A stretch of 64,000 nt of DNA, taken from contig OY725501.1 of the NCBI GenBank assembly GCA_963281255.1, forward strand, positions 1,093,674 through 1,157,673, in the 5' to 3' direction. Origin of the DNA: Aphrocallistes beatrix (lineage: Eukaryota > Porifera > Hexactinellida > Sceptrulophora > Aphrocallistidae). The position numbers were made by a program, and so were the translations under genes. Numbering within the stretch: position 1 is the first letter of the stretch; every line of letters starts with the position of its first letter. Positions 18,529 to 52,548 of the stretch are shown here, in pieces. The notes beneath the pieces were generated by a model. It was not told the origin of the DNA. It worked only from the letters and a program-made list of their open reading frames with translations, and searched no databases.

Positions 18529-19251
18529 ATTGGCTGCTAAAATAAGTCAGAATGGGGCCGGTCACCACTCGTCTACGTTTAGATTCCATTTTGTTACGAT
18601 CTAAGCTTCCTGTACACAGTAAGATTATCAGTATGTTATATAAAGAAAGGAATAATTTATGAAGAGGTAATAAGAAAAAATTGATAGTAAGAAAACCCCG
18701 GCATAATTAAAATGTTTTTGCGAGTATATTTAGGTTTTAGTCAACATAGTGATAATGATGCAATGTATGGCATTCTAATGAAAAATAATTCTGTACGGAT
18801 TTTAGATGCCTATGAAATAGTAGCATACTCAAGTTTTCACCTCAATCGAATCTAAATGGAAACTCGAAGCTAATGTTGGAGTATTCGTCTCAAATAAAGG
18901 AATAATTGTTACACTTATGGGTTAATGTAAATCAGATCTGATGAAATCATTAAACACGGAATAATTGAATTGAAGAAAGAAGTATCTTAGTAGATATCAT
19001 TGGAATTGAGAAAATAAACTCATATAATTGAGGGCTAAAGTTCACAAATCTGGGGGGCTAGGCCTGTTGCATGAGAAATTGACCCCCATGGGAAAATGAC
19101 TCCCCTTGTATATAGGAACCATGGATACTCAATAATTAGGGGGAGTCATTTTCACATGGGGGTCATATGCCTACGATAGGTGCGTGAGAAAATGACTCCC
19201 CTCTACTATTTAATGTATTGATCATCTTGGTGAATATTTAGTCATCTTAGT

Positions 19252-19478
19252 GAATATTTAGTATTCTATCACACTATTACAACTTCCTGTGGTGATTTCC
19301 TAATTGGAAGGGATGACAATTGCATCTAGAATATTTAGTATTCTATCACACTATTACATCTTCCAGTGGTGATTTCGTAATTGGAAGGGATGACAATTGC
19401 ATCTAGAATATTTAGTATTCTATCACACTATTACATCTTCCTGTGGTGATTTCGTATACTTGCTACGGAACATGTTCC
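19252..19478. repeat. 77-bp subterminal tandem repeats of the Ginger-type element
   Basis: The phrase GAATATTTAGTATTCTATC begins at 19252, 19329 and 19406, giving a 77-bp period and nearly three copies. Each unit holds CTTCCTGTGGTGATTTC and TTGGAAGGGATGACAATTGC. Inverted copies lie at about 23637-23775. Such subterminal arrays commonly bind the transposase; that role is inferred here. Confidence 0.85.
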
Positions 19479-19658: not shown

Positions 19659-22600
19659 TTAAATACATAATTCAGGGTGTAGTAAGTAAAACACTGAATT
19701 CAGTTTCCCCAAAGTTGTGTTCTTCTCCCATTCTGATATTTTAGGAGACAGCAGATCATTATACTTGTACCAAACACCATTCTGGTATATCATTAAATAG
19801 AAATGATTGCCAATAGATAAAGTATATCCTGCCAATCTGTAGCATAGGGTTCGTTCATTGTTAGCAATATAGATTGACTCATCAATATCACCCATTTTAA
19901 GTGTACAATTTGATTCAGAGATATGTCCAAGTTCTATTACGAATATTGTTGGTATATTTTGGAAGTGACCAGAGAGTAATTCAAGTTTAGATTTGTCTGA
20001 CTGGCATCTTTTGCAATTCGCAGGAATCATCTTCTTATCAATGCAATCTTGTAATGTAGAGGTAACTTTAGTAAAGCTGCCGACTTGAAGACTAGCATCA
20101 AATGTATCACAGCAGCTGTAGCATTTAAACGTCGTAGAATAAACATCGTTAGATAGCCTGAATTTTCGAAGAAGTTTTATTATTAATGCCTCAGAACCAA
20201 AGAAATTATACTTTTTAACTATTATTTCGTATGTAAGCGGAATATTGATCAAATTTGCAATGTAGTGTCGAAGTTCATCGAACTTGAGGTCATGAATTAG
20301 TGACAAAAAATGTTCTCCATCTGTATTAGGTGTGAATCCGGTGAATTTTATTGCATTCTCTATGCTAACTTTATTTAAACCAATCAGTGATATTACATTA
20401 TCTATCGAACAGGTGTTTACATGTAGGATATCGTTAAATTCCCCTTGCCAAATTGGAAACAATTTTTCAAGTTCAGACGCGACACCGTGATAATAGCACT
20501 CTTGAGCAATATCCGAGTTCGAGTTTAGTTGAATATCTTTTGTTCCCTCATCTTCAGAATCGATATAAATAAGTTTAGAATTCGAAATACTTTCCAGTAC
20601 CACAGGTTATTGAACAGCCAAGGGGTAGTCACATTTATGTCTTTCATCTATTTCTATCTGACAAGTTTCGAGATGTTCATTATACCACTTGGAAACCAGG
20701 CAAGCAACCTTTTCTTTCAGAGCATATTCAACTGAAGTCTCTGGATGGTATGAAATAAGATCATTGAATTTCAGGTATTTAGATTTTTCATCTAATTGTC
20801 GATGTAAATCAGAGATGTAGGAGTTCTCTTTCAACGCATTTATAAGTTTAGGTTTGATGCTGTTTATAATTTCCAGGTATTCATCAATAGGTAGGAAGAT
20901 TGGGATCAGATTCAAATATTTCTACCATCGAACCAATAGTGCCATCTCCACCTTAAAATAATTGACTAAGAATAAAATTTGAACGGATAGGTGTTTGAAA
21001 CCTGAACGATATTTTAATTGTGTGAATTTTTTAGCATTCTGATTTTTTAAAATTTGAATTTTTTGTGATATTTTATCTTTTAATTAATATGTACCTTGTA
21101 CATCTAATAGCTAGCTAGTATTTCGCGGAATTTTATTATTTTTGATTCCCTTTGCAAAATACTATATTACATACTTACATGTAGAGCTAGAGAAGTAGTT
21201 AGTAGTCAAGTCATCTACTTTCGAGTTGGAACATTCAAACGACATTGAGGAGGAAGTTGGCGAAGATTGCAACTACAGAATTGAGAATAATGATCTAACA
21301 TACTGAAGTATCATGCATAGGGAGATTTACGCTACCGATTATTGTACACGTATACATTCGTGCAATGTATCAAATACGTAATTTAAATATGAAATCTGAA
21401 AACATAAAAATGTTGATGATGAACCAACCAACCTTGCATTGTTTTAGCTTTTTGGATGCTTTTCGCTTTTGAGAATTCTGATTTGTCGATGTAGTCGATG
21501 TAGTAGTTTGAACGACAGTGTGATGAGTCTAAATAATTGTTATTTTACAAATCAATTGTTAGTTCTTTGATAATATACACGTAATATTATACATCTATTC
21601 GCTATCTCATAACATTTAACGGATAGCCATGACAGATACTTAAAATCGAGTAGTATTTTAATATTTGTGTAGATAGGAAAATATAGTACCTCTGAAATAC
21701 GCTGCAAATACTTTTTGGTGAGATGGAATGGCACCTTTTTCGATTTTTTCCCTTTCTCCTTATCAACAACAACATGGCCTTTTGTAACTCTTTGAACTGG
21801 ATAAGGCCCAAAATATTTAGGTTGTGATTTTGTCCCAGGCAGCTTTTTGTCTCTGTTGATATTACGGATAAGGACGTTATCTGACTTCTCGATGCTTGAT
21901 CTAAGGAAAGAGCGTTATTTTACTTAGTTTTCATTTACATAATCATTGCACAAATGTAAGTAATTAAATCTATTAGAGATATTTTAACTTATATAAAAGA
22001 AAAACAAACCTCTTACGATGAATCTTAGCATCAAATATCTGTTTCTGCCTTGCTTGATCTTGTAGGATATTTGTACGTGCATTTCCATATTCACTATTTC
22101 TGTGGGAGTCCATACTTTCTATCCACTCTAATGAATAAGAGGGCACTGTATACGAGTTTTCACTTCTTTCAGAGTCATTATTTTCAATAGCATCATCAGA
22201 ACTTGAATTTCCATCTAGTTCTAAGCCACTTGTACTAAAGAGATAAGCCGGATTGCAATCTCGACCAAACATTAATCTAAATGGGGTCATCTTAGTCGAT
22301 TTTTTGAGGTGTGTGTTTGCAGCTAAGCATGCCTCGTCAAGCCGTTGTGTCCATTCAAAGTCTACGTCGTTGCGAAACTTTTCGATTTTGCTAAATAAAT
22401 ATAAGTTATTGAATTGTTATCCAAGAAACTTCTATCTAAAAATATTCAATTACTACCATTTCAAGATCTTATTTCCTGCTTCCACTAGGCCATTACTCTG
22501 TGGGTGATACGCTGCTGTTGATCGGTTGTCTACTTTTAGAATTTCATGGAATTGTTTGAACTCCTACAAACAAATACTTTCAAATAACTTTTTTCACAAC

Positions 22601-23495
22601 TAGACTATGGTGGTAACATTATTATCCGAAAAGTGGTATTTACCAACCTTACTCTGAAATTCTGGACCTTGATCATGCTGAATGATTTCAGGGATGCCAA
22701 GTGTTAGGTATATAGAACGTAGCTTGTCAATTACTTCTTTAGTGCACTTCGATTTCAGCGGTATTGCTATTACATATTTAGATAAATAACAAACGGCAAA
22801 TAATAGATGCAAATAGCCATCCTGAGTCATTGGCAGGTTACAGATTAAGTCCATTCCGATATGTTGCCATGGCCTTTCTGGAGGTGGTATTGGTTGGAGT
22901 AGACGATTTGTATTCGTATTTGGATCCCTTTCCTTTTGGCATTTATCACAACTTTTAACCTATACGAAAAGATCACTCAATAGTACACTTTTTAAAGATA
23001 TGCATTGGAAACTTCACACAATGTATCACCTGATTTCGAAATTTTATATAGCATCTAGAATTACAGCCCTAACTAACAATTGTTTTAAAATTAACATACT
23101 ACTTACATAGCTTCTAACTTGCTCGCACATTCCAGTCCAATAGTATTCTCTGCGAATATTGTTGAGTGTAGCATTCTGGCCAGGATGATCTGAATCATGG
23201 TACAGCTGGAGTATAGTCGCTACTTCTGTTTTCAGTGGGCATTTTTAAAAATGTTCACTCCCATCTGGAAACATCACTTTCTGTACCAATAGAAAGAATA
23301 AAACCTTCCAAAAAGTAGATTAAGTAGATAATTATATTGTTTACTTACCTGATAAAGAATATTATTTTCTCCACTTATCCGAAATTTAAGTGATTTCCTT
23401 CGAAAGTTTCGCTTGAGAGCCTTGCTTTTGAAGGAATCAGGATATTTTTGGTACAATAAATAATCCTTAAGTTCTTCATACTCTGTTAACTCCAT
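19659..23495 (-). CDS. Ginger-type integrase fused to a USPL1-like cysteine protease
   Basis: Nine minus-strand exons with good GT-AG borders join in phase: 23495-23349, 23280-23107, 22959-22648, 22563-22457, 22390-22010, 21900-21690, 21528-21433, 21272-21179, 20951-19659. The start is the Met of MELTEYEELKDYL. Exon 2 has the H-H-C-C finger (LYHDSDHPGQNATL, continued in exon 3 by CDKCQKERD). Exons 3-4 carry the integrase triad: D in GMDLICNLP, D in QHDQGPEF, E in NGLVEAGN, with 35 residues between the last two. Exon 6 has a GPY-like box (YFGPYPVQRV). Exon 7 ends in a basic run (SQKRKASKKLKQCK). Exon 9 resembles the SUMO isopeptidase USPL1: candidate Cys in VNTCSIDN, CX2C pairs (CYSCC, CKRC), candidate His in SIGNHFYLMI, then WYKYNDL. 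Defects: a stop in exon 2, a frameshift near 20890, a TAA at 20607-20609. The fusion is inferred from phase. Confidence 0.8.
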
Positions 23496-23636
23496 TAGCA
23501 AAAATGTCAAATTGATCAAGGGGATTATAAAATGTGTATATATATATAGTATTAATAATTGAATCACTATCTTGCATGCAGCCACACACATGTGTGGTTT
23601 GAGTCACAGTAGAATAGTAGTAGAATAGAATTGTCA

Positions 23637-23961
23637 TCCATTCCAATTACGAAATCACCACAGGAAGATGTAATAGTGTGATAGAATACTAAATATTCTA
23701 GATGCAATTGTCATCCCTTCCAATTAGGAAATCACCACAGGAAGTTGTAATAGTGTGATAGAATACTAAATATTCACTAAGATGACTAAATATTCACCAA
23801 GATGATCAATACATTAAATAGTAGAGGGAGTCATTTTCTCACGCACCTATCGTAGGAATATGACCCCCATGTGAAAATGACTCCCCCTAATTATTGAGTA
23901 TCCATGGTTCCTATATATAAGGGGAGTCATTTCCCCATGGGGGTCAATTTCTCATGCAACA
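23637..23961. repeat. Right terminal inverted repeat of the Ginger-type element
   Basis: Mirror image of 19065-19478, with two 77-bp units followed by the same GGGAGTCATTTTCTCACGCA and ATGACCCCCATGTGAAAATG blocks. The two termini are nearly identical over the outer 180 bp, so the insertion is fairly young relative to its neighbours. Confidence 0.85.
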
Positions 23962-24269
23962 GGCCTAAATATCTCCCCCGTAGATCAATTTGTAAAATTT
24001 TCAGGGGGCCATGGCCCCCTGGACCCCCCCTATATCCACCCCTGCCCTCAACACATATTTCTATCTCAACTTGGCAAGTGTATTAACTTAATTTGTGGTG
24101 TTTTTTTTCCCATTTATATTTTTAATTGTTTCATTGTTTATTCATTAACTAATATTGTTGTAATACATAACTAGAATCAGTGTAAGTAAATATCCTTCAT
24201 ATTTTGCCGCCCCCTATTAAGCGCCGCCCGGGGCGGTTCGCCCTCCCGCCCCCCCTAGCTACGCCACTG

Positions 24270-35760: not shown

Positions 35761-35794
35761 ATTCATCTTAAATATTATAACTCGACTTGTAATA

Positions 35795-36614
35795 TATATA
35801 TATTACAGAATTAAGCTTTCCTAAATATAGATCTTTCTCTCATTCCCTAAGTTTAGGTGATACCATATCATTATATCTATACTAAGCACCATTAATTTTG
35901 CCTGCCGATAGAGTATATCCAGCTAATTTGTAGCAAAGTAAGTGTTTGCTACTGTTGGTAATAAAAATAAATTGTTCGATATCCTCCGCTCGAATAGTAA
36001 TATTAGTAAGGTGTCCAAGCTCAATTATAAATATTGGTGGTATTGATTGAAAAAATCCTGAAATTAACTCAAATTTTGAATTACTGGAGCGAAATTCTTT
36101 ACATTTTCTTGGTGACGTCATCTTGTTGGTGACACAGGATTGCAAATTGGATTTGACGTAGTTAAAGCTCCCTAATTGGACTGTTATTGTAAATTTGCTT
36201 GTGCAGGTTGAGCATTGAAGAGTAGGAAAACATACATCATTAGAAATATCGAATTTACGGAGAAGTTTGATAATCTGTGATTCATAACCGAAAAAATCGT
36301 ACCTTTTTACTATTAGATCGTATGTTACTGTAAGATTAATATTTTGAGCAATAAAATCTCACAGCTTGTCGAAATGTAGATTTTGCAAGCGTGGGAAATA
36401 TGTGAGTTTTCAGAGTTTTCAGAACAGAACAGGTATTGAGATGTAGAATGCCATCATATTCTCCCTGCCAATTAGCATATAATCTTTCAAATTCTTCAAT
36501 CACGCTGTCGGGGTTGATTTTCTTTTGCACAATTGATATTATTTCTAAATTTTCATTTTCCGACTCTATCTCAATAACTTCTGAATTACACATGTATTCA
36601 AGAACTACTGGCAA
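35795..36614 (-). pseudogene. Second copy of the USPL1-like protease domain, decayed
   Basis: Aligns along its length with the C-terminal domain of the Ginger gene at 19659-20603. Shared blocks in order are PVVLE, NWQGEYDGILHLNTCSV (candidate catalytic Cys kept), YDFFGYESQIIKLLRKF, a CxxC pair, IPPIFIIELGHL, LLCYKLAGYTLSAG and YRYNDMVSPK. The segment equal to NHFYLMIYQNGVW is mostly deleted (SAG-KINGA), which removes the candidate catalytic His, and stops occur around 36355 and 35880. The upstream integrase is absent; the copy is cut at its N-terminal side by a hAT end at 36618. It was therefore already inactive or lost function after insertion. Confidence 0.8.
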
Positions 36615-51221: not shown

Positions 51222-52548
51222 GGGCATTCAAAAAGTCTTGCGGGTCATATCACAAAAGTAAGTGTATACACTATAGAGACTAATGTAGTAGATTTTTTAT
51301 TCAAAGTAATCCCCTCCTACTGACACACACTTTCTCAATATTTCAACCCACTGAAAAAACATTTTCTGTACTCTTCTTCGGGGATGGATTTGAAGTACTG
51401 GTATAAAGCAGTTCCGAGTGCTTGTCTCGTGTCAAATTCTTTACCCTGGAGATAGATTTTCAACTTTGGAAAGAGCCAAAAATCACAGGGAGCTAGGTCT
51501 GGTGAGTATGGAGGGTGAGGAAGTAATTCTATCCTTTCGGATTCCAAAAAATTCTTGGTAAGCTTGGCTGTGTGGGAACTGGCATTATCAATCAATAATT
51601 TAATACCTCTCATTCCAGCCTTTGGACGAGCATCATTTACATTTTTAATCAAGTTTGGTAGGATTTTCTGAGTCAAATAGGTCGCATTGATTGATTTACC
51701 ACTCTCAGAAGGTAATTGTAATACAATACCGCCACTGTTGAAGAAAATTGTATACATTACCTTCGGGTTTCTGAAATCGGGCCTGGGAACTTGTGCCGGT
51801 TTTTCATCTCCTTTCACCCACGATCGCATTTTATACTTGCTATATGGAGTGGAAAACGGTACCCAAGTCTCATCACCAGTTATAATTTCTGATAGGCGCC
51901 TAGAATCACACTTATCATATGTTTCCAAGAGCTTCTTGGCTGTATTCATTCGGGTGAGCCTTTGTTTCTCACTCAGAATATGTGGGACCCATTTGCCACA
52001 AATCGATCGGTAGCCAAGACGAATTGTCAGAATTGAATGAATTGCTCCCGATGACATCTCCATACTATGTACTATCTGATCGACGGTTAAAAACCTGTCT
52101 TCCATCACCATTCTCCCAATTATTGCTATATTGTCTGGAGTGCTGACGGATATCGGTCTCCCTGAGCGATGTAAATCTGCCACATCAGTATCTCCAGACC
52201 TAAATCGTGCAGCCCATCGCTCAATGGTGGATCTGGAAGGACAATCCATGCCTAGTATCTCTTGCAACTCATTGTGAATCAGTACGCACTGGATATTGAG
52301 TTTTGTACGAAATTCAATATACGCTCTCCATTTCAAATTGAAACTATCATCTTTAGAAGCCATTTTCTACAAGTATGCTGAAATAGGTGTGATGTGAAAA
52401 GCTAGAAAATTCTGAGTTTTTATTCAATCAGTCTATAATTTGGAACATTTAACGATAAGATTTAAGGTTAAATTATATATGAAGGTTGAGAACTTTAAAG
52501 CGAAAATAATTGAAATACAACTCAATCCGCAAGACTTATTGAATGACC
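51222..52548 (-). mobile_element. Complete mariner transposon, 1327 bp
   Basis: Left end GGGCATTCAAAAAGTCTTGC, right end the inverse of GGTCATTCAATAAGTCTTGC, with TA at 51220-51221 and 52549-52550. Termini match over about 22 bp with two mismatches. It encloses one uninterrupted transposase gene on the minus strand. Length, TA duplications and gene size are all those of an autonomous mariner. Confidence 0.95.
51335..52363 (-). CDS. Mariner transposase, apparently intact (342 aa)
   Basis: Cuts and pastes the surrounding element at TA sites. The Met at 52363 gives MASKDDSFNLKWRAYIEFRT and a full-length protein, close to the usual 340-350 residues. An N-terminal helix-turn-helix pair occupies about residues 1-110 (IERWAARFRSGDTDVADLHR, RSGRPISVS hinge). 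The catalytic triad is D in ITGDETW, D in LLIDNASSH and D in YSPDLAPCDFW, with exactly 34 residues between the last two (DD34D). The WVPHILSEKQ-type linker motif (WVPH.L) and the YSPDL(A)P box are both intact. No stop or frameshift is present, unlike every other transposase in the window. Confidence 0.96.
   Translation of the reverse strand: MASKDDSFNLKWRAYIEFRTKLNIQCVLIHNELQEILGMDCPSRSTIERWAARFRSGDTDVADLHRSGRPISVSTPDNIAIIGRMVMEDRFLTVDQIVHSMEMSSGAIHSILTIRLGYRSICGKWVPHILSEKQRLTRMNTAKKLLETYDKCDSRRLSEIITGDETWVPFSTPYSKYKMRSWVKGDEKPAQVPRPDFRNPKVMYTIFFNSGGIVLQLPSESGKSINATYLTQKILPNLIKNVNDARPKAGMRGIKLLIDNASSHTAKLTKNFLESERIELLPHPPYSPDLAPCDFWLFPKLKIYLQGKEFDTRQALGTALYQYFKSIPEEEYRKCFFSGLKY

Follow-up and report, generated by a model that had tools for sequence, protein, structure and literature searches.

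A Decayed Ginger-Type Transposon of the Glass Sponge Aphrocallistes beatrix with a Predicted USP-Fold Protease Domain behind Its Integrase

Introduction

A 64,000-nucleotide stretch of the genome of the glass sponge Aphrocallistes beatrix (GenBank assembly GCA_963281255.1, contig OY725501.1, positions 1,093,674 to 1,157,673; hereafter the window) contains a minus-strand gene which seems to run from a retroviral-type integrase into a cysteine protease-like domain. Do the two parts form one protein, to which kind of mobile element does it belong, and why would a transposase carry a protease? We analyzed this locus against the host genome (100.5 Mb in 28 contigs, where the window is C15:1093674-1157673) and public proteins. 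Our reading, to which we give a probability of about 0.85 with respect to architecture and enzyme class, is that the window holds a decayed cut-and-paste transposon of the Ginger superfamily, whose gene joins a Gypsy/retrovirus-type integrase to a C-terminal domain of the ubiquitin-specific protease (USP) fold, predicted to be a cysteine isopeptidase.

Integrase and Protease-Like Domain in Related Copies

A search of the host genome with the C-terminal open reading frame (ORF) detected 127 places, which merged into 99 loci. One of them, L069, has an uninterrupted frame of 911 codons (888 from the Met), in which an H2C2 finger (2.2e-13) and an integrase core (rve, 1.3e-12) with the GPY box RWLGPYNV precede the C-terminal domain; GAAC flanks it on both sides, outside inverted repeats of about 420 bp. 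A second copy of the same family (L070) is divided between two frames. Among public proteins, six of nine matches to the C-terminal part of L069 also have PF00665. A profile search, scoring the 7,994 candidates that shared most words, yielded 51 proteins, and all seven of these with a named organism belong to another glass sponge, Oopsacas minuta. P0037 of this species is a fused gene model made by other annotators, with PF00665 and PF17921. Integrase and protease-like domain are fused into one polypeptide in these open-frame relatives. Upstream of the finger, where Ginger1 has a YPYY motif, a Tyr-Pro pair and aromatic residues can be made out by eye in L069 and in the fused protein P0013.

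Gene Structure and Decay of the Window Copy

The window gene comprises nine exons between 23495 and 19659 on the minus strand, with GT-AG borders and compatible phases (table 1). An initial annotation, made from the sequence alone, had described these exons together with the H2C2 finger, the D,D-35-E integrase, the GPY-like box and the candidate Cys, CxxC, His and WYKYND motifs of the C-terminal domain, all of which we found. Its further statement that a single phase stays open throughout did not hold: exon 2 contains an in-frame stop, the frame of exon 9 is lost near 20890, and a further stop lies at 20607-20609, so that the window copy cannot encode the whole protein. Copies of other families at eight chosen loci share DNA similarity with 2319 of 2815 exon bases versus 137 of 1022 intron bases. 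Because this similarity covers the exons and hardly the introns, the exon model is supported beyond chance and independently of RNA.

The exon-2 stop is present in three of six other copies examined and absent in three (one of these with an exon-2 indel), and in one of four the reading frame of exon 9 runs on as far as its terminal stop. The shared stop suggests that copies with a broken transposase may have spread, or that exon 2 is spliced otherwise. An insert of roughly 545 bases splits the USP-like exon of one copy (L019/L024, G000:C18:2293296-2294760). A further copy of the domain, heavily decayed, lies on the minus strand of the window (35789-36391 and 36411-36611; 52% and 42% identity), with three stops in the first piece.

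Table 1. Features of the transposon and its gene (positions in the window)
Feature	Position	Strand	Remarks
Ginger-type DNA transposon, whole element	19065..23961	gene on -	TGTTG...CAACA; 4897 bp
Target site duplication GGCC, left copy	19061..19064	.	context TA-GGCC
Target site duplication GGCC, right copy	23962..23965	.	
Terminal inverted repeat, left arm	19065..19398	+	complementarity between the arms 98-99%
Terminal inverted repeat, right arm	23629..23961	-	arms about 333 bp
Exon 1	23349..23495	-	start codon at 23495; upstream of zinc finger
Exon 2	23107..23280	-	first part of H2C2 zinc finger; Integrase_H2C2 1.8e-13 (Pfam); in-frame stop 23245-23247
Exon 3	22648..22959	-	integrase core, first two catalytic Asp; rve 8.8e-10 (Pfam)
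Exon 4	22457..22563	-	catalytic Glu of D,D-35-E
Exon 5	22010..22390	-	integrase C-terminal part
Exon 6	21690..21900	-	GPY box, KYFGPYPV
Exon 7	21433..21528	-	basic linker
Exon 8	21179..21272	-	linker
Exon 9	19659..20951	-	helical region and predicted USP-fold domain
Predicted USP-fold protease-like domain	19668..20474	-	AF2 pLDDT 85 or higher for most of it; top fold matches USPs and USPL1
Predicted catalytic Cys	20409..20411	-	NTCSIDN
First CxxC pair	20112..20123	-	predicted zinc ribbon (fingers)
Second CxxC pair	20004..20015	-	
Predicted catalytic His	19803..19805	-	GNHF
Predicted third catalytic residue	19758..19760	-	WYKYND; Asn in this copy, mostly Asp in the aligned relatives

The Element and Its Target Sites

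The initial annotation had missed the element as a whole, with its inverted repeats and GGCC duplication. It starts with TGTTGCATGAG and closes with that sequence inverted, and 77-bp tandem repeats lie inside the inverted repeat, the left-arm array starting at 19252. The element is complete, yet decayed. A DNA search with one repeat arm revealed other copies, mostly 97-99% alike, and a second family at 75-77% similarity.

An exact 4-bp duplication was found in 10 of 12 end pairs (one, C1:5115707, assigned by hand among three closely spaced ends) and in the L069 element; the other two pairs have none (C13:2158354) or one mismatch (C4:2853000). The exact duplications are all of the form GNNC, namely GGCC three times, GTAC and GAAC twice each, and GACC, GGTC, GCAC and GAGC once, and in the ten pairs they are mostly adjoined by TA (mostly TA-GNNC-TA). 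Two short elements have both transposon ends: L055 (G000:C1:8456956-8457071, 116 bp, exact GGTC duplication) and L056 (G000:C13:735402-735969, about 570 bp, exact GTAC duplication). They are probably non-autonomous miniatures mobilized by these transposases.

Fold and Active Site of the C-Terminal Domain

Two structural models predict palm, thumb and fingers for this domain. In the aligned sequences Cys, His and Asp/Asn follow in this order, and the CxxC-CxxC zinc ribbon lies after the Cys and before the His. In 12 aligned sequences the Cys and the zinc-ribbon Cys residues are invariant, and so is the His with one exception; the C-terminal region is under constraint between families. Fold alignments to USP and USPL1 structures have identities of about 8-18%, and when the window ORF and profile A1 were searched against the sequences of solved structures, all matches were chance-like. 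The C-terminal Pfam matches at E 10 (zinc ribbons and a YbjQ-like domain among them) were all sub-threshold and were rejected.

The initial annotation had named the domain a USPL1-like protease and had proposed a profile search against C98 and C19. Neither the profile of USPL1 (PF15499, C98) nor that of ubiquitin USPs (PF00443, UCH, MEROPS C19) matches: PF00443 has no match to the domain among the scanned proteins, while PF15499 matches none of these proteins and nothing in the host genome at E 1. None of the 61 UCH places of the genome lies within 2 kb of the 127 domain places. Within the USP fold we treat the domain as a clade of its own, a predicted isopeptidase which would act on ubiquitin or a related tag such as SUMO. 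Fifteen host-type USP (UCH) matches were also noted within 37 kb on one strand (G000:C17:3630818-3668145), apparently a tandem expansion of host USP genes.

Alternative Readings

Several results weigh against a fused transposase with a USP-fold enzyme. Among the 99 USP-like loci, no more than 26 have a scored integrase place upstream; the places came from a capped search (150 of 681 candidates scored) with one exon-3 query, which does not cover every integrase lineage, and in the other loci decay, other integrase lineages and stand-alone copies are indistinguishable. In addition, the C-terminal domain has no Pfam match reaching the cut-off in any of eight proteins, Foldseek TM-scores are only about 0.3-0.5, and one full-length protein, P0004, lacks the His. 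Profile comparison with host USPs gave weak scores: trimmed profiles reached 19.7, which lies between the 95th of 100 shuffles (18.9) and the shuffle maximum (23.4), and tool settings 37.1 (probability 25%, unshuffled). One could suppose that the integrase gene and the protease gene are distinct, within one element or in neighboring ones, and joined only by the exon model, as the window copy has no single open frame across both and its splicing is predicted. We consider this very improbable: the 888-codon ORF contradicts it for the L069 type, the fused public matches and P0037 argue against it elsewhere, and the 26 genomic pairs all share order and strand, versus none on opposite strands. It is also rather unlikely that the domain is a catalytically irrelevant pseudo-enzyme which binds ubiquitin and steers insertion. 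Inactive USP-fold proteins do exist elsewhere, and another residue occurs in 3 of 27 filled rows of the His column and 1 of 33 rows of the Cys column; the near invariance of the active-site and zinc-ribbon residues in the 12 sequences and the constraint on the region speak against it.

A true USPL1-like (C98) SUMO protease, which would remove SUMO from the transposase or from silencing factors, has more in its favor, and we still regard it as doubtful. According to the available part of PMC8983731, the His is followed by a conserved Phe in USPL1 orthologs and by Tyr in ubiquitin USPs, and blocking loops are missing in USPL1. In the domain, all 27 rows that have a residue after the predicted catalytic His show Phe, not the Tyr of ubiquitin USPs; its Tyr-to-His spacing is 12, compared with 13 in USPL1 and 16 in host USPs; and it shares Cys-x-x-Asp with USPL1. 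As to the blocking loops, its model, with one unbroken strand at 252-265, is ambiguous. With trimmed profiles its score against USPL1 is 28.1 (best of 100 shuffles, 22.8), exceeding that against host USPs, while tool settings reverse the order (20.0 against USPL1), so that the two comparisons contradict each other. Fold scores fail to separate the domain from ubiquitin USPs. On the other hand, the position of Tyr451, placed by spacing and not by superposition, is never Tyr in the 27 rows (S 7, L 6, H 6, C 3, F 3, N 2), and the six His, all in L069-type rows, resemble ubiquitin USPs. The absence of PF15499 matches and the OTU domains of sister elements also count against USPL1, the OTU family being best known for ubiquitin. 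The initial interpretation is supported in part, and we keep the domain as a separate clade.

Classification and Known Systems

Terminal inverted repeats and a Gypsy-type integrase as transposase place the element in the Ginger superfamily. Statements on Ginger1 below refer to the available part of its description (Bao, Kapitonov and Jurka 2010, PMC2836005). The element and Ginger1 share an integrase of this type with H2C2, DDE and GPY (the box following the catalytic core in both the window gene and L069), a 4-bp duplication, introns and a C-terminal cysteine protease of tag-removing type, as predicted here. The TGTTG termini of the window family also fit the TGTNR ends of Ginger1, whereas TGTTT of the L069 element does not. 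Ginger1 differs in its CCGG or CCGT duplications (GNNC here), inverted repeats of about 40-270 bp (about 333-420 here) and 0-4 introns (eight or none here). Its Table 1 gives OTU or Ulp1, never both, for 15 of 16 families (with a PHD once alongside) and one family without a protease, in contrast to the predicted USP fold here. Because the GNNC duplications and the different C-terminal domain set the element apart from the published description, we assign it to a Ginger1-like group of the superfamily, not to Ginger1 proper.

A transposase with a USP-type domain has a parallel in Trichomonas vaginalis XP_001314237.1, known from one sentence in PMC2836005, in which Transposase_11 is joined to Peptidase C19; it differs in having another transposase family and no Ginger integrase. 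Helitrons, in the accessible part of PMC9741609, also carry deubiquitinase domains (VTD, OTU), with classes beside or replacing each other; however, they are rolling-circle elements without integrase, their protease family is another one, and VTD activity was assayed there. The USPL1/USP proteases of PMC8983731 resemble the domain in predicted fold and in the order of Cys, zinc-ribbon CxxC pairs, His and Asp/Asn, besides the Phe of USPL1, and differ in that the domain is part of a transposase and has neither a Pfam match nor Tyr451.

No USP-fold Ginger was found in the literature searched (subscription journals and Repbase entries lay outside the search), in agreement with the initial suggestion that the arrangement may be undescribed. 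A word search of PMC12863088 (2026), on a Ginger1-derived gene, found no mention of OTU, Ulp, ubiquitin, protease or USP, and no title about such elements was among the results listed for glass-sponge genomes. A USP-fold clade unrecognized by Pfam would be new, as would the GNNC target preference, which is unreported for Ginger in the part of PMC2836005 at hand.

OTU and USP-Like Domains behind Related Integrases

The candidates scored were 150 of 641 in the rve search, 150 of 681 in the exon-3 integrase search and 150 of 263 in the OTU search. OTU gave 149 matches among its 150 candidates, and Ulp1 (C48) has nine matches in the host genome. Within 6 kb downstream of the 150 integrase places, on the same strand, OTU follows 48, a USP-like domain 26, both none and neither 76; no place has either domain on the opposite strand within 6 kb. 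The L069-type integrase was met in the rve search and is absent from these 150 exon-3 places. Identity to the window exon 3 reaches 63-64% among integrases with OTU behind them and is lower, at 50-54%, for those of several other USP-type families.

An integrase tree of 17 fragments and 104 columns included eight genome fragments (five OTU-type, three USP-type) out of 17 requested from the 74 paired places. USP-type rows fall on two lineages, one shared with OTU (split bootstrap 91-92%, not starred). The best tree needs four label changes, which shuffled labels equal in 217 of 500 cases, implying no excess clustering; a single USP clade was not rejected (p-AU 0.067, and 0.131 with respect to the five rows in the lineage of the window), and the window sequence itself forms a long branch. 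Repeated module swapping remains a suggestion because clade test, label shuffles and long branch are indecisive. It is conceivable, if tentative, that Ginger-type integrases carry interchangeable tag-removal modules, either OTU or the new USP-fold clade within one animal genome, and that the USP module on two deep lineages either entered repeatedly or gave way to OTU; movement would then require that ubiquitin or SUMO be removed in cis. Several of the OTU matches occupy frames of roughly 1000 codons with no scored integrase place nearby (e.g., C4:961412, C6:4042450 and C7:763718), so that a different mobile element of this genome may carry OTU as well.

Possible Function

The integrase half would bind the TGT ends and, cutting with a stagger of 4 bp, join them to a target of the form GNNC, while the protease half, brought to the same place, would remove ubiquitin or a ubiquitin-like modifier such as SUMO in cis. 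The most likely substrate may be the transposase or insertion complex itself, which would be shielded from degradation or silencing until insertion is finished. Such self-protection has close to an even chance in our view; repair or chromatin substrates, taken together, are somewhat less probable, and a non-enzymatic role of the protease-like domain is improbable. A role in repair signaling was suggested for Ginger1 proteases (PMC2836005), and protection from the proteasome for Helitron VTD domains (PMC9741609), each in the part of the source available; we prefer the latter idea because the enzyme would act in cis.

In its available text, the 2010 Ginger1 paper (PMC2836005) could only speculate on why OTU or Ulp1 proteases are present. 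A third predicted protease family at the same position, never together with OTU in the 150 places, argues that the element needs tag removal, and the occurrence of three tag-removing families (OTU, Ulp1 and USP fold) with Ginger-type integrases suggests selection for tag removal itself. Open-frame fused proteins such as the L069 type make this requirement testable.

Other Features of the Window

Other repeats were noted by eye on the minus strand of the window. An open frame of 343 codons (51335-52366) has the look of a transposase which we take to be of the mariner family, and fragments between 54346 and 62512 resemble pieces of a Gypsy-type retrotransposon and a LINE-type reverse transcriptase.
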